A DNA stretch of 64,000 nt from Chrysoperla carnea (lineage: Eukaryota; Arthropoda; Insecta; Neuroptera; Chrysopidae). The notes under the pieces are model-generated. The model saw only the letters and a list, made by a program, of their open reading frames with translations. It had not been told where the DNA came from and did no database searches. A program made the position numbers and the translations under genes. Location: contig NC_058338.1 of NCBI RefSeq assembly GCF_905475395.1, forward strand, positions 71,373,435 to 71,437,434, written 5' to 3'. Positions within the stretch are counted from its first letter, which is position 1, and each line of letters opens with the position of its first letter. Below are positions 8,591 to 62,106 of this stretch, one piece after another.

Positions 8591-9018
8591 ACAAGTGAAA
8601 ACAAACAATTGACTGAGTTAATTGTTCAAATTCCATGCATAAAATGTTTCAAACAAAAGTTGTTTATTTTTTGATAAGGAACATTTTTTATATTTAAACT
8701 TTTGTTCTATCTCTAACGGTTTACAAGATGGGTCCTTCGGACCCATAGGTCAAGACCCAATTGACCTGTGTTGCTCATTTACGAACTCGACCTCACTTTT
8801 TACGTTCTGAGTACGCTGTAAGAAACGTGTACGTGTAAGTACGTGTAAATTTCAGCTTCATATCTTTTTTGTTTTTGAGTTATCGTGCCCACAGACGGAC
8901 GGACGGACAACCGGAAATGGACTAATTAGGTGATTTTATGAACACCTATACCAAAATTTTGTTGGTAGCATCAATATTTTTAAGCGTTACAAACTTGGGC
9001 CTAAACTTAGTATACCTT
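8591..9018 (+). repeat. Interspersed repeat family R1, copy 1
   Basis: Starts with ACAAGTGAAAACAAACAATT, contains TCTAACGGTTTACAAG, CAGACGGACGGACGGAC and TAATTAGGTGATTTTATG, and ends at ACTTAGTATACCTTG. Four other copies in the window, all in the same orientation, share these blocks in the same order. Compared with copy 4 it lacks the CGGGTAAACAGTGA block, so it carries an internal deletion. Confidence 0.8.
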
Positions 9019-9746: not shown

Positions 9747-12700
9747 TTATTTAAAACAACCTTCAATTTCTTCGAAACTTTTTCCTAATGTTTCAGGTAA
9801 TTTTATGTAGACGTACGTTGACATTGTAAAACATATTACCGTTAAAAATGTAAACATTATCTATAAAAAATTAAATAATTAATGGTCAAGTCAAAAACGA
9901 AATTAGAAATATATTAAAAATTTGTTTTCTTACCAATGCTCCAAATTGATCAAAATATATTGGCCATAGCTTTAATGCAATGAACATACATATATAAGCA
10001 ATTGAAATCATTAATCCACCCAATTTTCCTCGCACTTTCACAGGTAATAATTCACCTAAAAAATTTAAAAGTTCATTTTTGAGAGATGCTTCAAAAAATT
10101 TGCAAAATCTTAGTAAGAGGTGTTATCGGAGAGGAAATCAAGCCCACATCATCTCACATTGTATTAGCATTTGTAATTTGTCATCAGATAATATAACATA
10201 ATTGAACAAATGGAAGGAAACGAAAAAATTACACAGAAGCAGGGGCTCGAATCAGGGTACTCTAGATAACCGTTCTAGGACGAACTATCTCCTGTTCTAT
10301 GTGAGTTACACAAATTGTACGTAACTTGTCTTTATTCTATTTGTATGTTTGTGTACCGGATATCTAAAGTACCTGGGTTCGAGTTCCGGCTTCTGCGTAA
10401 TTATTTCGTTTCTTTCTATTTGTTCAAATAAATATACGTAATATGCGTTATCTATTGAAATGTACAGTCTCACCCTCATATGTTAGATGGTACAATGTGT
10501 TAAGATTACAAAAGCTATTAAAAAATTAGAAATAAATAAAAAATTTAGTTTCATATTGAAAATATGTATTTTCATGATGACTACATTGGCGGGATGACTT
10601 GTAGCTTGCTAAGTAACGCCTCCGCGAAACAAGGTTTAGAAAAAAACAGTTAAAAATTGTTTACCAATTAAACTCCATGGGATGACTAATAAGCCAAATG
10701 CACTAAAACTAACATACGCCAGGACACAAATTAATATAAATGGGTTTCCATTTTGTTCTTTTTGTGTATCGGGGTGTAGTATCATTGATATAACTATGCA
10801 TAATGTACTTAGCCCCATTCCAGTACTTGATACAATCAGTAATTGGCGTCGACCAATACGCTTTGAAACTATAGCAACTATTACTGCTATTATAAATCTA
10901 GAAAAGAAAATTTGGCACTATTAATGTTTTATATCAATTATTTTATATGATGTGTGCAACTATCTATTCCTATTTGCGAGGGAGCAAGTTTTAAGTCTTC
11001 TGCGAGATTTCATTGTGGCGGTCTGCCCCTCTAATATACAATACCTTATTCATAATTAAACTTATTAGCGTCTTAGTGTTGCGACAGATCAGCGCTTTAT
11101 TTAATTGTATATGAAACAATAAAAAATATTATCAAATATACTCATAAAATTTAAAATTTAAATTTGTTGCGTTCGTTTCAGTTCTTCTCACCCGTTTTCA
11201 GCGCATTTGTGTAATGGAAAACTGGTATGGGGTACTACTCACATTTTCTTAGGGCCCCCTGTTTTTTTTTTAATTGATTTTTTTTTTAATTAGTAAATAT
11301 TTAAATAATTTAATATTCAAATTGTGATACCGTATCATTAAACATAATAAACCATAAATAACGAAACAAATTTTAATTATGAAAATATTTAAATAATTTA
11401 ACATTCAAAGTTTGATATCGTGCCAATATATATTAAATTGTAGACAACTTTTGGAGATAAACATTTAAAAGTTTGAGGGCACAACATCAAACAGGAACTA
11501 GCAAATTTCCATTTAATTTAAAACATAAACTGATTGCGTAATTCATAATGAAATTTATGGTTATTGAAATTCTATTGTGTGTTTCGACGCAAATATTGGC
11601 AGGACTACAGCATGGACAAGTGAAACAATCACTTGTACAAAATAAACGAGGTAACTATGCATATTTACTCAACTATGAATATTTCTAACAAATTTCATAT
11701 TATTTAGCAAATGGTGTACGTCAAAAACGTAGTTTGTCTGATGACTTAGAAATTTCAAGAGAGAGTGAACAAAATAAAGGATTATTAATTAATATTCAGC
11801 TCTCTTCAAAACTCTGCAGTATACTGGGCCATGGGTGCACTTCTAGTTCAAGCACTAACACCAATCCCACCCCTACCACCAAACCCACTACCACCGCTGA
11901 ACCCACTACTACCACCAAACCCTCTACCTCCGCTGAACCCACTACCACCACCAAACCCACTACCACCACCAAACCCATTACCACTGCTGAACCCACTACC
12001 ACCACTAAACCCACCACCTCGGACATTAAAGAGTTCAATAAGCGTAAATTGGAAAAAGAAATGAAGCACATGAAAACCTTCAAAAATTGCAATTCCCCCA
12101 GTGCAGTTTTCAGAAATAGTTGCCTTATGTAATTGTTATGTTCAATGATAATGAATGCGCTTTGTGAGTAAGATTGTTTTAATATTTTATATCAACAATA
12201 TATATGTAATTACAGACCAAGCGATTAATTGTATAAATACTTTGTATTACTGAAATTTATAGAAAAAAATCGGAATCCAAAAGAAAATAATAAATTCGAA
12301 ATTTTTTGCTTACAAACCTAAATTTTCTGACTTTCATATCGATTTTTACATTTTTTAAATCTCAAATTTAGATTAATTGACCTTGGAAATCCCTTAAATT
12401 TTATTAAGTTTTATACATAGTCTATTCCAAACTAAAATATCGAGGAGATGGCAGGTCAGGCCAGTTGAAACCGTTACCTATCATGTTTTAGTTGGCTAAG
12501 TACATGTTTATGACAATTAAAATATTTTAGGTCAAAAATTTCAGATTTGCCTGCCTCTAGACCAAAAATTTTTAACCACACCGCCCCCCCCCTACCTTGT
12601 GCAAAAGCTGGGCATGTTCATGACAACGGGCTTTCTTGATCGTGATATCTCAACCAGAGGGTGTACTAATCCATTCAGTATTCAAGTATTCCTAAATGTG

Positions 12701-15700: not shown

Positions 15701-17717
15701 CCAGAAATACAATGAAGAGCAAACTTACTTGAGTTAAAGAAAATTTTAGAAACCTAAACCAAAACGAGGATTCTATACTTACTTAGAACACAAGTGATCA
15801 ATATTCCGAGTGCAACAGCTATACTATTGAAGCACAAAATGATTGGTCTTAATTCAGTAGTGCTAACTTCACTTGCGTATATCAATGCTGCAGTCGTGAA
15901 ACCTTCAAATTTATTTAGTAAATGAGTAAAAATTATGTAATAGCATCAAATTAAGTTCCCCACAATCCTTATGGAAAAAATTTTCGATCATACTTTCTGG
16001 ATTTGAATTATTCTTGAAGAGATGTTTTGAGATATGAGAAGTCCAAGTTCAAGCATTAAATTATATTTAATTGTATTTGACTCGCTTGAGGAAAAGTTTT
16101 CTGTCAATACCTAAAATTGAGGTGATTTTTAGTTAATTTTTCTCTCTGTCAAATATTACGTTAGTTACACGTTCCCGAAGGGCTGATTCATTGTCTATGT
16201 TTTTAAACCTTGACCTCCAACAAACACATCTCAAAAACTCAAATTTGCCAAATCAGTGGCGGATTTGGTCCGGTGATGGCGCTCTGGGTCAATGGGATGG
16301 TAAGGCGCATTTTTTTTGGCTTTGTAAATCAATATGGCATTATTTCGCTTGTGTGGCATAGCCCGACTTCACCGACCTAGACGTAAATTCAGCACTTCCA
16401 GAAACTAGGAAAATCTATAGTTTGAGCGAAAAGCTTTTTCTACAAATGAGTGATAAAATGAGCGAAAAGCTTTTTCTACCAGGATTGTGTGGGATCCAAT
16501 TAGAAAGTACTTTTACATACTACATATACGTACCTCCAGCAAATCCTGATAATATTCGTCCAATAAAAATCAACAGTAATGATTGCGCATAATAAAACGA
16601 TAAATAACTAATTAAAAATGGAATGCAGGAAAATATACAAATATTTTTTCTACCAAATTTATCTACAAGCGGACCTGTTGCAAAAGATGCTAAAGGAAGT
16701 GCTAGTGATAAGCAACTGGCTGAAAAAAATTATTTTTTTGAGTTTATAAAAGTTAAAATAAACTATTCTGGGTCTGCCCATGTCTCTAAACTTATATTGT
16801 CTCTATAACTCATAATTTTATTTTATATACATTGCTATTTTTCTTTGGACCACTGATTTTTTTATGCGTGTCTTTTAAAAAGTATATAAATTTTGCTTGC
16901 GTGTATTGAGTATCAAGACCTCACCAGATAACATAACAAAATTGTCCTACCTAACCAAGATGCCGCGTTTATATCAATTTTAATATTATCATCTTCATTT
17001 AATTGTGGTAATAATATAGCGCTATAAGCCATTTGTACGCCCGATTGAATTACAGTGCTTAATGCTATACTTGAAGCTGCAATCTGAAATAAAAAATACA
17101 TACAGGCTGTTTGTTTTTTAATTTTACATATACGTGAAACTCGAAAAATAAGTTTAATCGAAGAAAATCTTTCAAACGAAAAATGTTACTTTCAAAGGCA
17201 CACATCTTATTCGGGTATTGAATTCGAAAAGGCACTTTCTTAACATTAACTTAATTCTGAATACACATAAAAAAGAAAGAGAAATTGTAAAGTAATCTTT
17301 GATCATTATTTTTTCTCAAAGTTTGTGGTACTTTTACTGGAAACAGATAACTGTGCAATGTGCGTGGGTAATATCACAATACTCCAACTTTTCGTCCGTA
17401 GAAAGTTTCAATATTAGCGAACATTCCCGCCCTTTTGCAATCAAGTGCCTGCAGGCACTTGCCTACCTTCTCTTATGAATAATCCGAGCGCAAAGCTATA
17501 ACTTTTGAGGTATTATTTCGAAAAATGATGATGCTAGGATTGACTTAATAATTGTTGGATTGAAATTTAAATAAATAAGAAATTTTACCTGTGGCCAAGC
17601 TTGTTTCCAGTTAATTTGTAATAATGGACGTTCAATAGGTTCTGTTGTACTATTATAAGGTTTTTCTTCCGTTGATGATACAAGCACTGAATTTGCTTCA
17701 TTATCTTTTTCATTCAT
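9747..17717 (-). CDS. MFS sugar transporter, facilitated trehalose transporter Tret1-like (ten exons, complete)
   Basis: Minus-strand exons in order: 17589-17717, 16951-17083, 16534-16719, 15783-15902, 13798-13964, 13557-13734, 12707-12815, 10665-10897, 9934-10055, 9747-9860. They join without frame breaks into 496 residues, the usual length for this family. Family signatures: GPLVDKFGRKN after the second membrane helix (103-113), a TTAALIYASEVS segment, PESP (217-220) in the central loop, QQLTG (301-305), KRIGRRQ, VIPWSLIGE-type and PVKVRGK motifs, and LPETLGKSFEEIE near the C-terminus. Alternating hydrophobic segments fit the 12-helix fold. It should move hexoses or trehalose across the plasma membrane by facilitated diffusion; the substrate cannot be read from sequence. 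The hydrophilic first exon is duplicated at 37.2 kb. The introns hold several MITEs and a nested gene. The ATG (complement of 17715-17717) is followed by a typical acidic cytosolic leader. Confidence 0.93.
10201..10429. repeat. Foldback element with a tRNA B-box-like sequence in its arms
   Basis: Arms 10201-10262 and 10368-10429 are close inverted copies. The right arm contains CTGGGTTCGAGTTCCGG, close to the Pol III B box (GGTTCGANTCC) but with one extra base, followed by CTTCTGCG. Weaker inverted similarity extends outward to about 10158 and 10498. It lies in intron 8 of the transporter. It may be a MITE or a tandem inverted pair of a tRNA-derived SINE. Confidence 0.6.
11209..11262 (+). repeat. 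Short duplicated block, copy 1
   Basis: The segment from GTGTAATGGAA to CATTTTCTTAGGGCCCCCT is repeated at 12946-12999, also within the transporter's introns. No transposon ends are visible. Confidence 0.5.
11548..12132 (+). CDS. Small secreted Thr/Pro-rich (mucin-like) protein, nested in a transporter intron
   Basis: Exons 11548-11650 and 11708-12132 (57-base GT-AG intron) give 175 residues. Residues 1-18 form a typical signal peptide (hydrophobic core VIEILLCVSTQILA). RQKR at 39-42 is a furin-type site followed by S43. Residues about 78-134 are tandem TTKPTTTAEP/TTTTKP units, likely O-glycosylated. The basic tail contains FNKRKLEKEMKHMK and ends with two cysteines, matching a CSILGHGC pair before the repeats. 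The whole gene lies inside intron 7 of the minus-strand sugar transporter. A poly(A) signal follows at 12289. I do not recognise the family. A secreted salivary, venom or cuticle/gut mucin-like product is plausible; a plant-feeding effector would be speculation. The repeats are nearly pure in all frames, so length polymorphism is expected. Confidence 0.8.
12289..12294 (+). terminator. Poly(A) signal of the nested secreted-protein gene
   Basis: AATAAA about 157 bases after the stop codon at 12130-12132, on the same strand. Confidence 0.55.
12946..12999 (+). repeat. Short duplicated block, copy 2
   Basis: Second copy of the block at 11209-11262, with the shared end CATTTTCTTAGGGCCCCCT, in intron 6 of the transporter. 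Confidence 0.5.
14151..14367. mobile_element. Foldback MITE family F1, copy 1
   Basis: Left arm GGAAAAAATATTTGAATAAAG and right arm CTTTCTTCAAATATTTTTGCC are inverted, with an inner palindrome around GTTTTTGGACTGTCTAATTC and its complement. Intron 4 of the transporter carries this copy and copy 2 in tandem. Confidence 0.65.
14533..14734. mobile_element. Foldback MITE family F1, copy 2
   Basis: The best-preserved ends: CCCTGGTGGAAAAAATATTT at the left and the inverse, ATTTTTTCCACCAGGG, at the right. The interior has the repeating AGAGTTTCTAAGACTT pattern of the family. No coding capacity. Confidence 0.75.
14757..14904. mobile_element. Short hAT-like MITE with G-rich ends
   Basis: The left part CCGCGGATTCAAGGGGGGG and the right part, whose complement begins CAGGCGCGGTTCTAGAA, form imperfect inverted ends. 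Inside them GGTCACAGGGGTCATGACC faces GTGACCCCCTCC. It sits directly beside MITE copy F1-2. Confidence 0.5.
14972..15202. mobile_element. Foldback MITE with 17-bp terminal inverted repeats
   Basis: GGGCGTGTTCCGTAATA at 14972-14988 faces TATTACGGAACACACCC at 15186-15202 with a single mismatch. Inner segments carrying CGACGCCATACTGG and CAATATGGCGTCG are also inverted. TTT flanks both ends and may be the target duplication. The core contains repeated TACACTG units. Confidence 0.75.
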
Positions 17718-18160
17718 ATTAAACCTTAAACAAAAATAATATAATTTTAGATACTTTCAAAACGATTTACGAAAATATATATTAAAATTAGAAGTTACTT
17801 GTCAGTTTCAACAAGTACTACTACATTTTTTTAAGAAGCAAGTATAAAGTGAGTGCTTTTAAAGCTATATAGTGTGTAAGAAACAATCTGTACAAGTTTC
17901 ATTCACTGTTTCTTTTTTACGAAAGCGGGAATTGAAATTTCTTTTCAGCATGATTTTTTTTTTGCAATTAGCAACTTGTAGTACGTAAAACAGAGCAGAA
18001 TGAGAGTATACTTAACCCGCACGAATAAATAATTAATAATAATAATAAATTTATTATAGCTATACTGTCTCATAATTTTTTCCCGAAATAAAAAATCCTT
18101 CTTTACACTAGGTATTGTCATAAACACACCTTTGAAACATCTATCAAAGGTAAATAATTT
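17718..18160. other. 5' flank of the sugar transporter gene
   Basis: No gene seen. Immediately before the transporter ATG on the minus strand is an acceptor-like TTTAAG followed by GTTTAATATG. This suggests a 5'-UTR intron and a non-coding first exon farther out. The paralogous exon at 37.2 kb has the same arrangement. Confidence 0.4.
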
Positions 18161-18510
18161 GCGCTCTCATGGGTAAACAGTGATGTTTACGAAAAAATGT
18201 TTCAAACAAAAGTTGTTTATTTTTTTATAAGAAACATCTTTTATATTTAAATTTCTGTTCTATCTCAAACGGTTTACAATATGGATATTATGGACCCAAG
18301 ACCCAATTGACTTGTGTGGCTATCAGCTTGATATCTTTTTTCGTTTTTAAGCTATCGTGTTAACAGACAGACAGAAAACCGAAAAGGGATTAATTAGGTG
18401 ATTTTATGAACACCTATACCAAAATTTTGTTTGTAGCATCAATATTTTTAAGCGTTACAAACTTGGGACTAAACTTAGTATACCTTGATATATTTCATAT
18501 ACATGGTATA
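18161..18510 (+). repeat. Interspersed repeat family R1, copy 2
   Basis: Begins GCGCTCTCATGGGTAAACAG, includes TTTCAAACAAAAGTTGTTTA and TAATTAGGTGATTTTATG, and ends TATTTCATATACATGGTATA. It lacks the first block (CAAGTGAAAACAAACAATT) found in copies 1, 3 and 4. Confidence 0.8.
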
Positions 18511-29424: not shown

Positions 29425-32400
29425 TTATAAACAATTTTGATTCTTTAATGCTAACATTTTTAATAACTTTTCTGTCAGATTCTTATGTTTATTAACTATA
29501 GCAATTTGCAATAATGTACGCCCGTGATTATTAAGAGCATTTGTTACTGCTAAAAACTCATCTTGCTTCATTAACTTTAACTTGTCAAGAACTTCAACAT
29601 TACCTTTTTTTGTACTCTCAAACATTTCTTCTATTACTTCAAAAAAATGAACAACTTCCGGATCCTTGGAAACATTAATAGGCATTTTGCCTTCTTTATT
29701 CTTAATATTATAAGCTGCACCATGTTTTAATAAACATTTTACAATTTCTAAGAAGCAATTTTTAGCTGCAATATGAAGTGATGTGGTACCGCTAGAAGTA
29801 GTTTTAGAATTCACAAAGACATTTAATTTATCACGACTTATACGTTCTAATAAAATTTGGACAATTTCTTTACAACCTCGATTAGTAGCAATATGTAGAG
29901 GTGTGTTACCTTTATTAGTAACTTGAGTCATATCAGCTCCATATTTCAGTAAGATATTTAAAACATTTATGTGTCCATTGCTAACAGCATAATGTAACGG
30001 TGTTCTCCCATCAAGGTCGATATCATTAGCGTTACCTCCACTTTTTAAAAGATGCTGAACAGTATCTAGGTCACCATTACTAGCAGCAATGTTGATATCT
30101 CTTTGTAAGTCTTGCAAAACTGAGACTTCAACATCCTCTAACTTTAATTCCATTTTAATTGACTCCATTCTTACTCTGCTAACTAAAACCGTTTGATGAT
30201 ATGGTCCAAAAACTGATTTTGTTTTTTCAAAATTATGCCTGTAGACTTTCAAGGCGGTAATATATTTGCGTTGAGCAAAAAGGACTTCTGCTATGCTGTA
30301 TTCGGTAATTAAAGTTTCTGGGTGATCTTTTGGCAAAACTTTTTCCTGTATATTTAAAAGTTCCTGAAAAGTTTTCAAGGCCTCATTATGCTTTTGTTGT
30401 CTAAAAAGTACTCCAGCAATGCTATGTAACGTTCTTAATGTATCAGAATGATTAATACCTATAATACATTTCTTTTCTTCTAGAACTTCCTTATAGATTT
30501 TTAATGATTCTTCTAATTTACCTTGGTTTAACAGTACCATAGCTATATTATTTTTGGCTTTTACAGTATCTAAATTATGTGTACCTAGGGTTTCTTTCCT
30601 TCTTTCAAAAACTGTTTTGTTGATATTTAATGCTTCTTGAAACTTTCCTTGCTTATCTAATACTAATGCCATGTGAAGCTGAGTATTTAAGGTATCTGAA
30701 TGAGCAGGACCAAGTATTTCGTTTTGTTTTTGATAGATTTCTTGATAAATATTACCAGCTTTTTCATTCTCTCCTTGCCTGTGCAGGACTAAAGCCATTA
30801 AATCTCTTGTTTTTAATGTATCTATATCATTTAAACCTAGAACTCTTTTTTGTTTCTGAAAAATTTCTTCAAGCATAGATAAGGCATCTTGATAATGCCC
30901 TTGCTTGTATAGAACTTTGACTTTATCTACCTGAATATCTAAAGTTCCTGGATTATCTGACCCTAGTATTTCTTTTCTTCTTTCAAATATTTTTCTTAAA
31001 ATAAATAAAGCATTTTCGTATTTTTCTTGAACCATAAGAGCTAAAGCTGCGTTATGTTGAATGGATACATCATTTTGCCATATCTGTTTCAATTGACCCA
31101 CTTCTGAAAAGTTATTATGTATTGCAGCAACTATTAACGTTTCGTTTTCTCTATTACAAGCACGCATTACTGTTTTTACTGTATCAATATCTTTTATTTT
31201 ATTTAGATCTTCAATAACTTTGATATTATTTTCCATAATTTGTTTAAATGATTTATTAATTAGTTTAAATAAACCAGCAATATCTTCATCTACAGCAAAG
31301 TCTAATGGTATTTTGCCGCTGTCAGAAAGTGTATTATATACTGCACCATGGTATAGTAATATTTTTACAATTTTTAAATGTGAGAATTTAGTAGCATAAT
31401 GTATGGGAGTAAATCCATTTTTACCAACCGCATTAGGATTGGCTTTATTCTGCAATAGAATCTTGACAACTTTGTCATAGCCTTTCCATGCAGCATAATG
31501 CAAAGATGTAGCATTATCAGCATTTTTTGCATTAACATATGCTCCTGCTCTAATGCTATTCTCTACTTCCGACGAGTCATTACATTTTACAGACTCAAAT
31601 AATTTTTCAATTAATGTAAATAAGTATTTAACATCTTCGTTATAAGCTACGTCTACAGGTCTTAAACCCAGCATATTATCAGCAGCATTGTAAATTCCAT
31701 AATTATTTATTAAAATTTCTATAGCGTCTTTTTTACAACCAAAATTAGCAGCAATATGCATAGGAGTTATACCGTCACTGTCTTTAGCATTAATATTAGC
31801 ACCCTGCGCTATCAAGTATTTTATAACTTCCAAGTGACCTTCTATTGCAGCATAATGTAATAATGTTTGGTTTTTTGAACCATACTCGTTAATACTTAAT
31901 CCTTTACTAAGAAAAAATTCTACAATATCCTTATTACCCTCTCTAGCGGCAATATGTATAGGCTTTGAGCCTTTGTTATTTTTTGCATTAACATCACATC
32001 CTATATTTACAAGAAATTTTACCATATTTAAATTACTTTCTTCTTGTGAGGCAATGTGCAACAATGTAAGACCATCTTGGGTTGTACCATTTATATTCAC
32101 CTTATTAAATTGTAGAAACATTTTTACTATTTGAACATAACCATGTACAACTGCTAATTCTAAAGGTGTTCTATTCTTGCTGTCTTTAATATCAATACTG
32201 GCTCCATTCCTTAATAGGATTTGAACAACATTATTATGACCGTGTTCTGTAGCAACATGTAATGGAGCACCACCTTCAGTTACAACGTTAACATTAGCTC
32301 CATTTGTTATTAAAATTTCAGCAATTTCTTCCTGGTCGATTCCTGCTGCAATATATAATGGTGTTACATTCAAAAAATTGTTGGAATTAACATCGAATCC

Positions 32401-35400
32401 TTTTTTTATAAAATATTTTACTAAGTGCGTGTGCCCTTTTATAATTGCCGAATGTAATAGTTCAGCATATTCTGGATCTTTTATATTAATATGCGGTTTA
32501 GTTTTTAGTAAGGTCTCTACAATATCTTTGTTTCCTGCAAGTACTGCAGGTTTTACCATTTTATTATCCACGACATTAATATCTGCGCCCTTTGCTATTA
32601 AAAATTTTAGTATTTCAAGATGTGCTATTATCATAGCTAATTGTAATGGTGTACCATGATCACTTTTCGCGTTAACTTTGGCTTTATTTTTAATTAAGAG
32701 ATTTACTATCTCTTTGTTACCTTTTATAACAGCTGTATGCAAAGGTGTAAGACCATATTTGTGTGTAGCATTAACCTCAGCTTTATTTTTGATTAAAAAA
32801 GCTGCAGCGACTTTTTGTCCATTAGCGACAGCTATCTGTAAAGGCGTGGCACCATTATTGTTTCTTATATTCACATCTGCTTTATTTTTTATTAGAAGAT
32901 CAATAATATCTATGTTACCTCCCGCAGCAGCAACATGTAATACTGTATTGATGTCTAGAGCTTTAATTTGAGCTGTATTTATTATTAGTTCAACAATATC
33001 TTTATGACCTTTTAGAGCAGCCAAGTGTAATGGTGTTAAGCCTTCATTGTCTTCATCATAGATTTTTGCGCCATTTTTTATTAATAACTCAACAATTTCC
33101 CTGTGACCACTATATGCTGAAATATGCAAAGCTGTAACATAGTGTTTATTTTTACAATGAATTTCTACTCCATGTTGGAGCAAAGCCGCAACTATTTTCA
33201 AGTGACCTAGATTTGATGCTAAATGTAGTGCCGTAAAACCTTCTACAGTGGCTATACTGGTATTTGCCTTATTTTTTAATAAATCTTTAACAATTTCTTC
33301 GTGACCAAAATTTACTGCAAAATGCAAAGGTGTATCGTTGTAGGTGTTGTCAACAACATTAACATTAGATCCATGCTCCAATAAAATATTAGCTATCTGT
33401 CGGTTTCCGTTTTCTATTGCGTAATGCAACGGTATACAACCAGTAATATTTCGAGAATTAACATTAGCTCCTTTGAGAATTAAAGCATTCACTACTTCTA
33501 AATGACCATTCAAAGCTGCTAAATGCAGTGGTATTACTTCCTTATCAGTTTTTGCATTAACATTAGCTCCATTTCTGAGTAAAAAGTTAACCGATTGTAG
33601 ATGACCTCTTTCTGCTGCTAAATGTAATGGCGTGAAGCCACCTAGAATCTCGTTCACGTCAACATTAGTTTCCTTTTCCAGCAAAATCTTTGCAACAATA
33701 ATATGATTATGTTTTATTGCATAATGTAAAGGTGATAAACCCCTTTTATCTTTGGTATTTGTACTAGCATTATTTTTTAATAAAATTTCAACAACTTCTT
33801 TGTTATTATGTTCAGCTGCAATATGTAACGGTGTTCTGTGTTTTTTATCTAAATCATCCACACAAATGCCGGTTTCTGTTAAAAAAAACTCCACAGTATT
33901 TTTTCTTCCATGTGCTGCAGCAATATGAAGTGGACTTTGGCCATTCAAATCTTTGAGGTTAACATCAAACTTTTGATTAATAATATATTTTATAGCTTCA
34001 AGACTGGGCCCCTTAGCAGCAAAATGTAAAGTGGTCCATAACATATTACTTCTAGCCTTAATGTCAGCTCCTTTTCTAAGATATTTTTTAAAGTTTTTAA
34101 TATTACCTTTCTCCAACGCAGTAAACATTTTTTCTTGATTGGTTATAGTTCTAAGACTTTGATCTAATTTCTCCTTGAGCTCAGAAGGAACATCGTTTAT
34201 CAACTTGCCAAGTTTTTTTTTACTTTTTGTTATGTTTTTGGAAATAAGTTTTTTAGCATTTAAGATAATTGCTTTTGAGGGATCAGATAACAATGCATTA
34301 ACCAAAGTATTTTCATGTGCTAAGTGATTACGCAAACATTTTCCAATCAATAAAGGAGTATTGTCATCTAAAAAAAGTAGATTGTTTTCTAGATGCTTTC
34401 TCGATTCACTCAAAATTGACATTATATCCAGGACAAGCATTTCTACTGCTGCTTGTAACTTTTCATCATTCTTGTAGGAAGAAAATTTTGTACATAATTT
34501 CTCACTTAATTCGTTATATGTCAAAATATTTTTTAGTTCAGACAGCTTTTGCTCAAGTTGGTTATTATATTCGTTTTCTGTTATTTCGTAACCCTTGCTT
34601 GGCTTATTTATAGAATTAAGAGAACTTTTCTGCTTTAATTTTTTTCCTAATTTCTCAATCCATTTAATGTCATCTGTTCCAAATTCGACAATAAGTAAAA
34701 TTTGAAAAATTATATTATTTACTTTCTCAAGTATATCGTCCTGCATTTTTGACCTGGCAATATGACAGATTTGCGTTGAGAGCTCGGCTATTTCTTTAAG
34801 ATCGCCAGTTTTTATATCGCAGTCAATCTTATTTAGTGCTTTATTAGCACTCCATTTAATTGTTCTTATAACATTGTTATGATCAGTGATATTGCTGTTG
34901 ACAAATAAATTGTCAACCAAATCCTTAAATGATTCAAATCCCAAAATGTAATTCATTTTAACATTTTTTGCTTTAGTTTTTTCATTATTCAAGATGATAT
35001 TAATTTTATTAAACAGTTCATGTTCATAAAATTTTTTATCAGGTACATTATCACTTAATTCCTTAATGAGTTTTTCAAGCTTCTCATGTTCCGCCAATTT
35101 AAAATTATCAAACATTGTTTCTATTTTAATATACCCAAAATTTTCACCAATTTCTTTTAACTCATCTAAATTTTCACAAACAGATAGTTTCTTCAGCAAT
35201 ATTCTGATAATTTTCATTTTGCTGTTGTAAAGAATCCCAGTAATTACATCATCGATTTTTTTAATATCATTTTGAATACCAATAAAAAAGTTAGCGTCTG
35301 TATTTTGTTCAATCTCTGTTCTTTTTGATAATGAGTACGCATGGGAAAATGAGTTGCGCAAGTCTATGATTACTTTTCTTGTGTTCTTTGGTAATGATAA

Positions 35401-36714
35401 AAGAAGAAATTCGCTTTTAAAGTTTGATAAATTAGGTGATTCTAGAGAATTCTTTAAATTTTCACCAATAACTTGCAGCACCCTTGTAATAATTAATTGA
35501 CCTTCTCTTTGTTTAGTATCAGCTGATAGTCCTATTTTTATGTATTTACTTATTTTTTCTAAAGAATATATATCCCTAATTTGTTGATAATCGTTATACA
35601 ACTGTTCAAATTGAGAATTAATTTTAATGATATATGAAACAACTTCTTCGCGTTTTTTGTTCGGCAGACAAGCAAATTTGTTAATGATGTCACCATCTAT
35701 ATTATTTGTTTCTTCTCGAAGTTTCTTTCCAAAATTTTCTAAGTGGTGTAATATTTTAATTTTATTCATTGTGAAACGATAGAAAAGATTATTTTCATGT
35801 TGTTTTTTATGACAAAAAACAAAACTAATCACACAAAATTGTATTTCTTCCCAAGGTAGTTTATCGTAAGTCGACCTCAACTGCAGTTTCAATATATTAA
35901 TGTTTTGCGCAATAAACTTTGCTATGAATAAAAACTTTTCATCCACATTTTTTTCACTTGAATATTCTGCAATTAGTAAACTAATATTTTGAAGTACTAA
36001 TTCAATTCGTTGTCTAATATTATTAAAATGTTCTTTTGCATTTTGAATTTGTTTCGAGCCATCAGAAAAGAAACGAATATTTATTAATACATCTTCAACA
36101 AAAATTTCGATCTCTTCTAGTAATGGAACGTTCTTTAGTTTTAATTCATCATAAGCAAGTGAAATAATTTTATCTAATTCTCTGGAATGAACAGCAAAAT
36201 AATTACCTGGCCATTTATTAATGAGTTTATCGAGAAGATCAACATTGCCCGTACGTATAGCATAATAAAACGCGTTGTGACATGAGTCATCTTCATCATT
36301 TGGTAATATTGCTTTTCTTTCGATATTAACGGTTAGATTATCTAGAATTTTATTATTAGTTTCGAATAGATAGTCTAGAATTGTAACATTATTATTCTGA
36401 CAGGTAAGGATAATTAGATTTGTGTTTTTAAGAGGATTTGTATTATTATTATAATGTTCCCTCAAAGTTTTTTGATTTTCCAGATTGTGTATATAATCTA
36501 TAAAATTGCTAAATTTTTTAAAATCATTTAAATTGTTTTCTGATATTGAATTTATAAGTTTATTTAAAACTAAGAAGTAAATGTCTGTAGCTCTTATTTC
36601 TTCATTGAAGAGCTTTTTATAAGCTTTAATGAAGGCTGCTTTTGATGTGTACGTATGTGACAGAAACTGTTGATTTTCTTGATAGTAGTTGGTTCTTTGC
36701 TTAGATTTATGCAT
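29425..36714 (-). CDS. Giant ankyrin/TPR protein with two HEPN-type RNxxxH motifs (2429 residues)
   Basis: A single uninterrupted frame of 2429 codons plus TAA, in a region whose other genes are split by short introns. Layout: residues 1-860 are mostly helical, with RNSFSH (R453-H458) and RNHLAH (R795-H800), each an R-N-x3-H motif at the end of a helix-rich block as in HEPN ribonuclease domains; 865-1820 hold about 28 ankyrin repeats (TPLHxAAxxGHxxIVxxLLxxGAxVN), with helical breaks near 1690-1715 and 1805-1870; 1880-2175 hold about seven 42-residue TPRs of kinesin-light-chain type (LGxxHxDTLxTxxxxAxVLxxQGKxxEAL); 2205-2420 hold a last ankyrin block. No signal peptide is in frame at this ATG. 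An acceptor lies 9 bases upstream (AG at 36724-36725), so an upstream exon may add residues; see 37209-37337. The repeats suggest a scaffold that binds proteins. RNase activity is inference from two motifs only. A lineage-expanded insect gene and transfer from an endosymbiont are both possible. Confidence 0.85.
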   Translation of the reverse strand: MHKSKQRTNYYQENQQFLSHTYTSKAAFIKAYKKLFNEEIRATDIYFLVLNKLINSISENNLNDFKKFSNFIDYIHNLENQKTLREHYNNNTNPLKNTNLIILTCQNNNVTILDYLFETNNKILDNLTVNIERKAILPNDEDDSCHNAFYYAIRTGNVDLLDKLINKWPGNYFAVHSRELDKIISLAYDELKLKNVPLLEEIEIFVEDVLINIRFFSDGSKQIQNAKEHFNNIRQRIELVLQNISLLIAEYSSEKNVDEKFLFIAKFIAQNINILKLQLRSTYDKLPWEEIQFCVISFVFCHKKQHENNLFYRFTMNKIKILHHLENFGKKLREETNNIDGDIINKFACLPNKKREEVVSYIIKINSQFEQLYNDYQQIRDIYSLEKISKYIKIGLSADTKQREGQLIITRVLQVIGENLKNSLESPNLSNFKSEFLLLSLPKNTRKVIIDLRNSFSHAYSLSKRTEIEQNTDANFFIGIQNDIKKIDDVITGILYNSKMKIIRILLKKLSVCENLDELKEIGENFGYIKIETMFDNFKLAEHEKLEKLIKELSDNVPDKKFYEHELFNKINIILNNEKTKAKNVKMNYILGFESFKDLVDNLFVNSNITDHNNVIRTIKWSANKALNKIDCDIKTGDLKEIAELSTQICHIARSKMQDDILEKVNNIIFQILLIVEFGTDDIKWIEKLGKKLKQKSSLNSINKPSKGYEITENEYNNQLEQKLSELKNILTYNELSEKLCTKFSSYKNDEKLQAAVEMLVLDIMSILSESRKHLENNLLFLDDNTPLLIGKCLRNHLAHENTLVNALLSDPSKAIILNAKKLISKNITKSKKKLGKLINDVPSELKEKLDQSLRTITNQEKMFTALEKGNIKNFKKYLRKGADIKARSNMLWTTLHFAAKGPSLEAIKYIINQKFDVNLKDLNGQSPLHIAAAHGRKNTVEFFLTETGICVDDLDKKHRTPLHIAAEHNNKEVVEILLKNNASTNTKDKRGLSPLHYAIKHNHIIVAKILLEKETNVDVNEILGGFTPLHLAAERGHLQSVNFLLRNGANVNAKTDKEVIPLHLAALNGHLEVVNALILKGANVNSRNITGCIPLHYAIENGNRQIANILLEHGSNVNVVDNTYNDTPLHFAVNFGHEEIVKDLLKNKANTSIATVEGFTALHLASNLGHLKIVAALLQHGVEIHCKNKHYVTALHISAYSGHREIVELLIKNGAKIYDEDNEGLTPLHLAALKGHKDIVELIINTAQIKALDINTVLHVAAAGGNIDIIDLLIKNKADVNIRNNNGATPLQIAVANGQKVAAAFLIKNKAEVNATHKYGLTPLHTAVIKGNKEIVNLLIKNKAKVNAKSDHGTPLQLAMIIAHLEILKFLIAKGADINVVDNKMVKPAVLAGNKDIVETLLKTKPHINIKDPEYAELLHSAIIKGHTHLVKYFIKKGFDVNSNNFLNVTPLYIAAGIDQEEIAEILITNGANVNVVTEGGAPLHVATEHGHNNVVQILLRNGASIDIKDSKNRTPLELAVVHGYVQIVKMFLQFNKVNINGTTQDGLTLLHIASQEESNLNMVKFLVNIGCDVNAKNNKGSKPIHIAAREGNKDIVEFFLSKGLSINEYGSKNQTLLHYAAIEGHLEVIKYLIAQGANINAKDSDGITPMHIAANFGCKKDAIEILINNYGIYNAADNMLGLRPVDVAYNEDVKYLFTLIEKLFESVKCNDSSEVENSIRAGAYVNAKNADNATSLHYAAWKGYDKVVKILLQNKANPNAVGKNGFTPIHYATKFSHLKIVKILLYHGAVYNTLSDSGKIPLDFAVDEDIAGLFKLINKSFKQIMENNIKVIEDLNKIKDIDTVKTVMRACNRENETLIVAAIHNNFSEVGQLKQIWQNDVSIQHNAALALMVQEKYENALFILRKIFERRKEILGSDNPGTLDIQVDKVKVLYKQGHYQDALSMLEEIFQKQKRVLGLNDIDTLKTRDLMALVLHRQGENEKAGNIYQEIYQKQNEILGPAHSDTLNTQLHMALVLDKQGKFQEALNINKTVFERRKETLGTHNLDTVKAKNNIAMVLLNQGKLEESLKIYKEVLEEKKCIIGINHSDTLRTLHSIAGVLFRQQKHNEALKTFQELLNIQEKVLPKDHPETLITEYSIAEVLFAQRKYITALKVYRHNFEKTKSVFGPYHQTVLVSRVRMESIKMELKLEDVEVSVLQDLQRDINIAASNGDLDTVQHLLKSGGNANDIDLDGRTPLHYAVSNGHINVLNILLKYGADMTQVTNKGNTPLHIATNRGCKEIVQILLERISRDKLNVFVNSKTTSSGTTSLHIAAKNCFLEIVKCLLKHGAAYNIKNKEGKMPINVSKDPEVVHFFEVIEEMFESTKKGNVEVLDKLKLMKQDEFLAVTNALNNHGRTLLQIAIVNKHKNLTEKLLKMLALKNQNCL

Positions 36715-37208
36715 GGATTTTCCCTGAAATATATTTTTACCAATAAATATGTTGGTAAAATTAATAGAATACTACTAATTAATTTCATGAATAATTTACA
36801 AATAGCAAACGGAAAATTTTTAATTTGATAAAGCTGAGCCAAATTTGTTAAGTGATTTGCTTACTTTATATAGGTGTTTTAATGTTAAATTATTTCATAA
36901 TTTTTTAAATTTTAACTTAATTGTTAATCAGCCACAACAAAAATTAATTTGAAATTTAAAAATACTATTGTGAAGATAATACACCTGGATTTACATTTAT
37001 TTAAATTTGAGTTTATCAAAATAAAAAAATTGTTTAAATTATGTAATTTTTAAGCTAAAATTTTCATATTTGCTCAGCGACTAAAATTTCAAACCCCACC
37101 TATGTGAAAAGCTGGGTATGCCTACTGAACCATGAGCTTGACAATTTTTGTTAGATCATATTCTCTAATGTATTTGAAAGTTCTTAAAATGCAAATACAA
37201 TTGTTTAC
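36715..37208 (-). promoter_or_regulatory. Putative intron and acceptor joining the transporter-like exon to the ankyrin ORF
   Basis: On the minus strand, ATATATTTCAG ends at 36724 and is followed by GGA AAA TCC ATG, in frame with the ankyrin ORF. The donor CAG|GTAAAC of the upstream exon is at 37208. The 485-base segment between them is AT-rich. The same region also encodes, in another frame, a hydrophobic leader (MKLISSILLILPTYLLVKIYF), which the intron interpretation would remove. Confidence 0.45.
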
Positions 37209-37337
37209 CTGTGGATGGGCATGTTTTCGATTAATTTGTAACAATGGTCCTTTCAAAGGCGCATTTGTATTACTGTAAGACTTGTCTTCCGTTGATGATA
37301 TAAGCGCTGAATTTTCTTTCTTATCATTATCGTTCAT
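37209..37337 (-). CDS. Orphan copy of the sugar transporter's first coding exon; candidate first exon of the ankyrin gene
   Basis: 43 codons from ATG (complement of 37335-37337) to a phase-0 donor, exactly the length of the transporter's exon 1 at 17589-17717, with 24 of 43 residues identical (shared NSxLxSSTE, GPLLQIN/RPLLQIN and the final PQ). No stop or frame change has accumulated. The acceptor-like TTTAG just before the ATG is also shared, so the duplication reached a 5'-UTR intron. No other transporter exons follow on this strand. The next large coding unit is the ankyrin ORF, which has a phase-0 acceptor. The exon may encode an N-terminal leader of a chimeric protein, or be a relic of a truncated paralog. 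Confidence 0.7.
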
Positions 37338-37542
37338 TCTAAGCCCTAAAGTCAAAAAATTATTCTACACATGTGTGAAAAAAAGAGATTCGTTTGAACT
37401 GGGTGAATTCATTGAAATATGAATATTAAAAAATTTAGAAATTGGCAGATTGACGTACAAGGAAACATAAAAGATCAGGTGCTCAACTAGACTTTACAAC
37501 AGTCTTAAATAAAATAGTGTATTTTATTTATTATATTTTTAG

Positions 37543-48257: not shown

Positions 48258-48813
48258 CAAGTGAAAACAAACAATTGACTGAATTAATTGTTGAAATACC
48301 ATGCATAGTCAGTGTTGATTTCTTTATCACATAACACATAAAAACATGTGACTCATACATAATCAAGTATAGTACATATTATAAAATTTCCGCCTAATTG
48401 GCGCCCTCACGGGTAAACAGTGATACTTACGAAAAAATGTTTCAAACAAATTTGTTTAATTTTTGATAAGGAACATTTTTTATACTTAAACTTTTGTTCT
48501 ATCTCTAACGGTTTACAAGCTGGGTCCTACGGACCCAAGACCCAATTGACCTATGATGCTCATTTACGAAATTGACCTCACTTTTTACGTCCTGAGTACG
48601 CTGTAAAAATTTCAGCTCGATATCTTTTTTCGTTTTTGAGTTATCGTGTCCACAGACGGACGGACGGACGGACAACCGGAAATGGACTAATTAGGTGATT
48701 CTATGTCTATGAACACATATACCAAAATTTTTTATAGCATCAATATTTTTAGGCGTTACAAACTTTGGACTAAACTTAATATACTATGTATATTTCATAT
48801 ATACATGGTATAA
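48258..48813 (+). repeat. Interspersed repeat family R1, copy 4 (most complete)
   Basis: Contains every block: CAAGTGAAAACAAACAATTG at the start, CACGGGTAAACAGTGATACT, ATCTCTAACGGTTTACAAGC, GACGGACGGACGGACGGAC, AAATGGACTAATTAGGTGAT, and TATTTCATATATACATGGTA at the end. Best reference copy in the window. Confidence 0.85.
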
Positions 48814-48819
48814 AAATAA

Positions 48820-61160: not shown

Positions 61161-61545
61161 ACAAACAAAAATTGTCAAAACAAACAATTGAGTTAATTGT
61201 TGAAATACCATGTATAGATAGTGTTGATTATGCAATCGATTGTTTTTTTACGTCATGTAAGTCAAGAAAGATAGGCACTCTTTCACACAAAGTAATAAGA
61301 GTAACTTTCTCCTCACTTCCTCAGTGGATATAGTATATATCCACTGAGGAAGTGAGAAGAAAGTCAGTGGATATAGGAACATTTTTTACATTATAATTTC
61401 GATCTATCTCTAACGGTTTTCAAGTTGGGTCCTACGGATTGTACTAATTAGGTGATTTTATGAACACCTATATCAATATTTTTAAGCATTACAAACTTAG
61501 CACTAAACTTAGTATACCTTTATATATTTCATACACGAATGGAAT
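61161..61545 (+). repeat. Interspersed repeat family R1, copy 5
   Basis: TTGTCAAAACAAACAATTGA, ATTGTTGAAATACCATGTAT, ATCTCTAACGGTTTTCAAG, AATTAGGTGATTTTATGAAC and the TTAGTATACC-ATATTTCATA end. The centre has been replaced by the hairpin at 61304-61364. Confidence 0.78.
61304..61364. repeat. Near-perfect 29-bp inverted repeat with a 3-base loop
   Basis: 61304-61332 and 61336-61364 pair at 28 of 29 positions (mismatch 61311/61357). The inner 21 bp (CTCACTTCCTCAGTGGATATA) are perfect. CAGTGGATATA then appears a third time at 61366-61376. Confidence 0.9.
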
Positions 61546-62106
61546 AAAAATCTTACCTCGAAGTATTTAAATTAGGACCCTGTACTGTCAGTAATATTCA
61601 GTACCCAGTGAATATAAAATAGCAGTATGGGTTTGTTAACAGTTTTGGCTGGATTGAGAAATAACACTTTTCAACATAGATTAAATTTTATAGACATTAA
61701 TATTACAATCATAATTTGGAGATATAAATGGATTTGAGTTGCCTTGAATCGATTTTTAAAACAAAAAGATTCCGTAATTCGTAATAATAATTCATGCAGA
61801 GCTAGTAAATCGCTTGTTTGATCTATGCCAGAAAACTTGTAGATAAATATTTGACAGATCTGCTTGTTTTTTAGTGTGACGAAACGTTTTACCTAGTACA
61901 ATTTTGATGTGTCAGGATCGAGCATCAATTATAGGCATTTGTTCACTAAGAATAAATCGGTTGGATAAAAGTTTGTAATAGTTAATCATGATATTTAGAT
62001 AAACAAATAACAAAATTATTTGTTATAAAGATTAAGGATCATTATTTTAGTAAAATTATGCTTCCGGACACGTAGCAGCAAACATCAATTAGATGTATTG
62101 TGAAAG

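Follow-up and report, generated by a model that had tools for sequence, protein, structure and literature searches.

The eukaryotic association module (EAM) of Wolbachia phage WOVitA1 contains gwv_1093, an ankyrin/TPR gene, and passages of the paper describing that module report arthropod homologues of its N-terminal domain as well as transfers between phage WO and arthropods, the direction of which was left open (Bordenstein & Bordenstein 2016, PMC5062602). Chimeras formed with genes acquired by horizontal gene transfer (HGT) are also known from arthropods: the main text of one survey counts 104 origins in 319 genomes, often after gene duplication, and includes a damselfly gene in which a duplicated host transporter piece is combined with an endosymbiont-derived piece (Kapoor et al. 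2026, PNAS, PMC13389597). In ants, passages of a further study describe 245 Wolbachia ankyrin HGTs in 45 species, with 249 of 418 annotated proteins expressed, and mention the gain of introns and untranslated regions (GigaScience 2026, PMC13320244). Here we describe a 64,000-nucleotide stretch of the lacewing Chrysoperla carnea (C2:71373435-71437434 within a 559-Mb assembly; hereafter the window), in which a gwv_1093-type open reading frame (ORF) lies downstream of a 43-codon exon resembling the first coding exon of a Tret1-like sugar transporter. Positions are those of the window unless a contig is named, and features are read on the minus strand. Judged from its sequence and from that of its paralogues, the locus is quite probably a host-phage chimera, in which a phage WO-type gene was fused, within the lacewing line, to a duplicated Tret1-like first exon, and was subsequently duplicated.

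The original prediction, which was drawn from the window alone, described a Tret1-like exon copy of 43 codons with a phase-0 donor at 37208/37209, and this description was confirmed base for base: the frame of this leader exon is open, and its 3' end reads CAG/GTAAAC at 37209/37208. Leader and parent exon, which lie 19.5 kb apart on the same strand, share 24 of 43 residues and 97 of 129 bases (E=1.7e-13), and their similarity extends 5' of the ATG (17584-17736 against 37204-37358, 76% of 156). Both, together with the leader of a paralogue described below, have the same layout at the 5' edge, namely an acceptor-like sequence, a short stretch and the ATG. This likeness is not due to chance, because a search of the 559-Mb assembly with the 624-bp stretch from leader to ORF gives, at E<=0.001, no matches other than the stretch itself, the parent exon (E=6.8e-19) and a single 46-bp segment that resembles part of the intron. 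The parent gene is intact, as its nine-exon assembly (460 aa) is 100% identical to P0093, a 496-aa protein titled 'facilitated trehalose transporter Tret1-like [Chrysoperla carnea]' with the Pfam domains Sugar_tr/MFS_1. As had been predicted, no second transporter exon was seen after the leader copy, the complete transporter being the parent gene; unlike P0093, neither leader nor ORF contains an MFS transporter domain in Pfam. The leader itself looks lacewing-specific, since its best score among 207 other proteins, other transporters included, was 32. A leader search in 51 long candidate proteins (E<=10) returned only the NCBI models P0071, at the window locus, and P0045, at the paralogue, so that no species beyond C. 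carnea is represented among those candidates.

The ORF that follows has no internal stop across its 2429 codons (36714-29428), and its protein aligns full-length and colinearly, end to end, with gwv_1093 at 63% identity over 2465 aa. Over 2423 aligned codons, again with no stop, dN is 0.22, dS 0.70 and dN/dS 0.32. Pfam assigns Ank and TPR repeats to the product, and its N-terminal 900 aa match phrog_9049 (1.6e-161). In total, 90 relatives were found, and those with a named organism come from Wolbachia, Mesenet and many arthropods. A comparison of the window with 19.6 kb of WOVitA1 (blastn, E<=1e-3) gave no match beyond 29452-36745, and hence none to adjoining EAM genes, among them gwv_1092 (PRANC); the ORF is therefore a transferred homologue and not a prophage. 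Being phage-like and intronless, the ORF might be suspected of deriving from bacterial contamination or misassembly. Yet it is flanked by lacewing genes on a chromosome-scale contig with a host exon upstream, it is about 36% diverged from the phage protein, and the assembly holds three other near-full-length relatives as well as fragments, so that such an origin is extremely improbable.

The acceptor 485 bases downstream of the donor was likewise found as predicted: ATATTTCAG is followed by GGA AAA TCC ATG (36723-36712), in phase 0 with the 2429-codon ORF. It was not supplied by intron 1 of the transporter, however, but lies within phage-like DNA. The blastn homology between the window copy (W) and the phage reaches 31 bp 5' of the ATG and takes in AATATAT[C/T]TCAG, the predicted acceptor. 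In the 30 nt before the ATG, 20 positions match the phage, a level unique among 127,940 window placements. Aligned on the start, the phage reads AATATATCTCAG AGAGAGCTT ATG and W reads AATATATTTCAG GGAAAATCC ATG, while two paralogues, copies B and C, read AATATATCTTAG GGAGGATCA TCA and AAAATGTTTCAG GGTGGATCG GTG. This homology is visible only by start-anchored alignment, as the 18-nt junction pattern of W had no match in the phage record with three mismatches allowed, and the comparison is with one phage, WOVitA1 (KX522565; HQ906662 is likewise WOVitA1). In W and B the acceptor AG thus clearly appears to derive from the incoming phage-type DNA, and in C it probably does; the argument requires only that the donor copy had a phage-type start region. 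Since the AG stands 9 nt before the phage start, phase 0 is fixed by spacing, and the match in phase was inherited. From its position and letters, the purine run after the acceptor would correspond to a Shine-Dalgarno-like ribosome-binding site (RBS). Upstream of the W ATG the frame stays open for 57 nt, and the sole AG in this span is that of the 36723 acceptor. Because the ancestral ATG survives in W, two start sites are possible there.

The same arrangement recurs in copy B, which lies on another chromosome (the 139,979,878-bp contig C1) and whose protein model is P0045. Its leader has the acceptor TCTGTTTTAG just 5' and the donor AAG/GTAAAA, differs from the parent by a 13-codon in-frame deletion, and is followed by a donor flank similar to the parent intron. 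The first 30 residues of P0045 score 72 against the parent leader, a value reached by 0 of 5000 shuffles (maximum 42). P0045 reads ...NFPK/GGSSHMSK, and its annotated junction, K/GGSSHM, falls exactly at TTAG/GGAGGATC, the homologue of 36723. As in W, the 30 nt leading up to the start position agree with the phage at 20, a level unique among 9871 placements in the B locus. In this copy the ancestral ATG has become TCA and the acceptor AG lies within an in-frame TAG stop; since the ancestral start has been lost, the start codon most likely comes from the leader. In P0071 as in P0045, a single predicted ORF combines metazoan with non-metazoan sequence. The proposal that a transporter leader had been fused in frame to an ankyrin gene is thereby supported, by P0071 and by the homologous leader and acceptor of copy B, although the ankyrin block is of the phage WO gwv_1093 type and not an ordinary host gene. 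For W itself, we infer splicing from 37209 to 36723 and translation from the leader.

Several observations, given in this and the following two paragraphs, count against the chimera or against its particulars. The NCBI model P0071 (1744 aa), whose exon translations agree with the window letter for letter, comprises 43 leader residues and passes in frame into the ORF at 36396 rather than 36723, skipping the first 106 ORF codons, and on a crude score the pyrimidine run is stronger at 36396 (11) than at 36723 (8). The model also makes GT-AG skips at 35957-34368 and 31032-30856, within the intact ORF, and at 29496-28938, across its end, and omits 90 bp (33006-32917) without GT-AG; these skips are possibly an annotation artefact. 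NCBI pipeline models may draw on RNA-seq. Because of these extra skips, three with GT-AG and one without, P0071 is doubtful in detail; it nevertheless supports the fusion and speaks against the exact junction at 36723, so that the predicted junction finds its counterpart in the copy B model and not in that of W. The leader might accordingly be joined at 36396, or both isoforms might be made, leaving a chimera that lacks the first 106 phage-type codons. As the skipped portion is conserved in the family and the copy B model takes the other acceptor and retains it, we regard this as unlikely, albeit a serious contender.

Selection on the leader taken alone is weak. The original prediction described the exon as if it were still in use and proposed a dN/dS check; over 43 codons the parent-W value is 0.48, which is below 1, but the bootstrap interval of 0.17-1.34 includes 1. 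Values of 0.42 (parent-B) and 0.39 (W-B) were obtained for the other pairs, the pairs spanning 30-43 codons. Parent and W leader differ at 17 of 43 third positions and at 15 of 86 first and second positions (Fisher p 0.009). In neutral simulations, at least 24 residues were kept in 15-22% of runs and the leader remained stop-free in 9-15%. In addition, similarity between the B and W leaders is slight (score 39, a value attained in 5 of 5000 shuffles), and without its leader copy B would still have an in-frame Met two codons past the old start position. The leader could be a fossil, left behind by a tandem transporter copy that has decayed, its parent being only 19.5 kb away on the same strand, with the ORF using a promoter inside the intron and its own intact ATG (36714); the start Met is also kept in 17 of 26 proteins aligned across the start, the window's included. 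However, a homologous leader precedes copy B, which lies on another chromosome, has lost the ATG and has its annotated exon boundary at the homologous acceptor, and at each of the two loci the NCBI model connects leader to ORF. We consider the fossil improbable, and retain the chimera.

Copy C (C1:102515074-102522474) is open for 2458 codons and has a conserved acceptor, with GTG in place of the ancestral ATG. Within about 47 kb upstream, no Tret1-like leader was detected (no tblastn match better than E 0.1); its start region matches the phage at 16 of 30 positions, with 12 of 9871 placements as good, itself included; and a possible start is an in-frame ATG located 18 nt upstream of the old one. 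Copy C may have lacked the leader from the outset, may have lost it, or may rely on a different exon. The ORFs of W, B and C, open for 2429, 2463 and 2458 codons, are 57-59% identical to one another and 64.5-67.7% identical to the phage protein. A careful tree unites them in one group (support 94/97), which is nevertheless below the star threshold, and in a tree without copy C the sisterhood of W and B was neither found nor rejected (p-AU 0.494). In these unrooted trees the nearest copies by path are those of Wolbachia and phage, and arthropod, phage and Wolbachia copies are intermixed. That W and B are each nearer to Wolbachia or phage copies than to each other, and that the B leader is more like the parent than like its W counterpart, would fit a history in which two separately transferred phage-type genes each captured this transporter leader independently. 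Against this stand the union of W, B and C once C is added, and the GG..ATC letters that all three share after the acceptor and that are absent from the single phage record compared; two captures are, in our estimation, distinctly improbable. If the group is real, the ORFs appear to be constrained within the lacewing, because dN/dS is 0.34 for W-B, 0.31 for W-C and 0.29 for B-C (2381-2417 codons; dS 0.82-0.92).

A single fusion before the split of W and B is thus the simplest history of the chimera, with transfer likely from phage to lacewing. A gwv_1093-type gene, supplied by phage WO or by a Wolbachia-like donor, would have entered the lacewing nuclear genome, where the AG of its RBS region, 9 nt before the ATG, would have been usable as a 3' splice site. 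A duplicated Tret1-like first coding exon, bringing a 5' acceptor and a phase-0 donor of its own, would have been spliced in frame onto this gene, and the chimera would have duplicated to give at least W and B. After the fusion, copy B would have lost the ancestral start, the leader start taking its place. While the capture had been placed first at the window locus, it probably occurred in the ancestor of two or three copies instead.

Beyond these copies, a further gwv_1093-type gene, copy D (C3:906635-912877), is open for 2080 codons and has CTCTTTTCAG 7 nt before its ATG. In the N-terminal part it is 73% identical over 911 columns to a Candidatus Mesenet protein, and its start region, with 7 of 30 matches to the phage, shows no homology; it is probably a separate second transfer from another donor. 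More partial gwv_1093-like matches lie at C4:13885009-13886949, decayed with several stops, and at C1:8089250-8091867.

Features of the chimeric locus, its parent exon and the copy B leader
Feature	Position	Strand	Remark
Leader exon, 43 codons, Tret1-like first-coding-exon copy	37209..37337	-	residues 1-43 of NCBI model P0071 identical
Leader donor GTAAAC	37203..37208	-	GTAAAA in parent and in copy B
Leader 5' edge, acceptor-like TTGACTTTAG	37338..37358	-	exon start would be 37345, ATG 8 nt further
Parent: first coding exon of intact Tret1-like gene	17589..17717	-	exons reach about 9900
Predicted intron, 485 bp	36724..37208	-	
Phage-like DNA 5' of ATG, with acceptor AATATATTTCAG	36724..36745	-	phage counterpart AATATATCTCAG; blastn to phage ends 36745
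GGA AAA TCC, acceptor-to-start spacer	36715..36723	-	counterpart of phage AGAGAGCTT (putative RBS region)
Ancestral (phage) start ATG	36712..36714	-	retained in W
Alternative acceptor CCTTACCTGTCAG	36397..36409	-	taken by NCBI model (exon start 36396)
gwv_1093-type ankyrin/TPR ORF	29425..36714	-	2429 codons + stop
Main ankyrin-repeat array (approximate)	31192..34134	-	
TPR block (approximate)	30184..31029	-	
RNSFSH motif, HEPN-like	35341..35358	-	R-x4-H-x-Y including next AY
RNHLAH, second HEPN-like motif	34315..34332	-	
Copy B leader, 30 codons	C1:100329915-100330004		then 2915-bp intron, ORF at 100,332.9 kb

As to the product, the spacing of the first of the two HEPN-like motifs, R-x4-H-x-Y, is that given in the titles of HEPN toxin entries (R102, H107, Y109). 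Across 34 aligned rows, RNSFSHAY is conserved at R in 33, N in 34, H in 33 and Y in 25, and RNHLAH at R in 34 and H in 32. An AlphaFold model of the N-terminal 900 aa (pLDDT 76.0, pTM 0.61) had no Foldseek match at E<=0.001, and its VIA-align rows cover mostly residues 9-217 and are ankyrin-like. Relatives of the N-terminal domain were not found in plasmids or IMG/VR, and a search of genome contigs gave one locus, in a Wolbachia metagenome-assembled genome, which matches query residues 138-560 only and does not cover the start region. Our best guess is that the product would be a host-expressed, cytosolic ankyrin/TPR scaffold or effector with an RNase-like N-terminal part, and it might be speculated that the ORF has perhaps been retained against symbionts or their phage.

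How bacterial genes, once transferred, come by a eukaryotic promoter, introns and a start is a long-standing question, and the copies compared here may represent intermediates: in the phage, a start that adjoins an AG; in W, a leader and acceptor with the old ATG; and in B, a leader without it. This suggests a cheap route, in which the AG of the RBS is used as splice acceptor and the phase is set by spacing. More generally, and as a tentative proposal that could readily prove wrong, the RBS region of phage WO (YYYAG and purines, 9 nt before the ATG) may act as a ready in-phase insect 3' splice site, by which gwv_1093-type genes capture host 5' exons and drop the bacterial start, in the lacewing and perhaps independently elsewhere. 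Among the nine of 26 aligned proteins without the start Met are copy B, three paralogues from Ooceraea and three proteins from bees, the last with a Met three codons upstream; the Lasioglossum row is unreliable at this position. The three paralogues of the ant Ooceraea have G, V and V at the position of the ancestral Met, following an unrelated leader. The leader of P0007 is weakly RBB1NT-like, below the cut-off. The Ooceraea, Anthonomus, bee and P0007 comparisons are between protein models, from which acceptors are not readable. The NCBI model P0038 of the weevil Anthonomus grandis has a HECT-E3-like N-terminus ahead of a gwv_1093-type body and is a possible second host-phage chimera; its leader matches TRIP12 chains at E of about 1e-6, and its HECT piece is below the Pfam cut-off. 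The route is testable across the many arthropod ankyrin transfers, which were excluded as a class from the published screen for chimeras.

Elsewhere in the window, a dispersed repeat family, probably a transposable element, occupies 8641-9015, 18155-18510, 48395-48817 and 61370-61551, with pairs 83-95% alike, and a 147-codon ORF at 11689-12132 contains a 54-bp (18-bp) tandem repeat encoding a Thr/Pro-rich stretch. Rfam and tRNA scans of the window returned nothing.

HGT-chimeras are already known as a kind; re-use of an RBS region as a splice acceptor was not found in the open-access literature searched, where the titles and opening lines of abstracts among the papers retrieved show no such case. 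In that literature, gwv_1093 is named in one paper. No open-access work was found that joins Wolbachia ankyrin HGT with Chrysoperla, and the available portions of PMC12758981 and PMC10253641 hold nothing on the lacewing gene. The word 'intron' is absent from the main text of PMC5062602, as are 'Chrysoperla', 'Neuroptera' and 'exon' from that of PMC13389597. Among the ant ankyrin HGTs, the relevant passages describe no fusion to a host exon, and 'fused' has no match in them (PMC13320244). The Tret1-like transporter P0093 supplied the leader, though the chimera is without its transporter domain. With the HGT-chimeras, as the main text of that screen presents them, the lacewing gene shares the in-frame joining of metazoan and non-metazoan intervals, predicted from gene models, but the pipeline of that screen removed ankyrin repeats as confounders (PMC13389597). 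With gwv_1093 it shares the architecture, at 2429 codons against 2474 in the phage and 63% identity from end to end; unlike gwv_1093, it lies by itself between host genes and has a host exon ahead of it.

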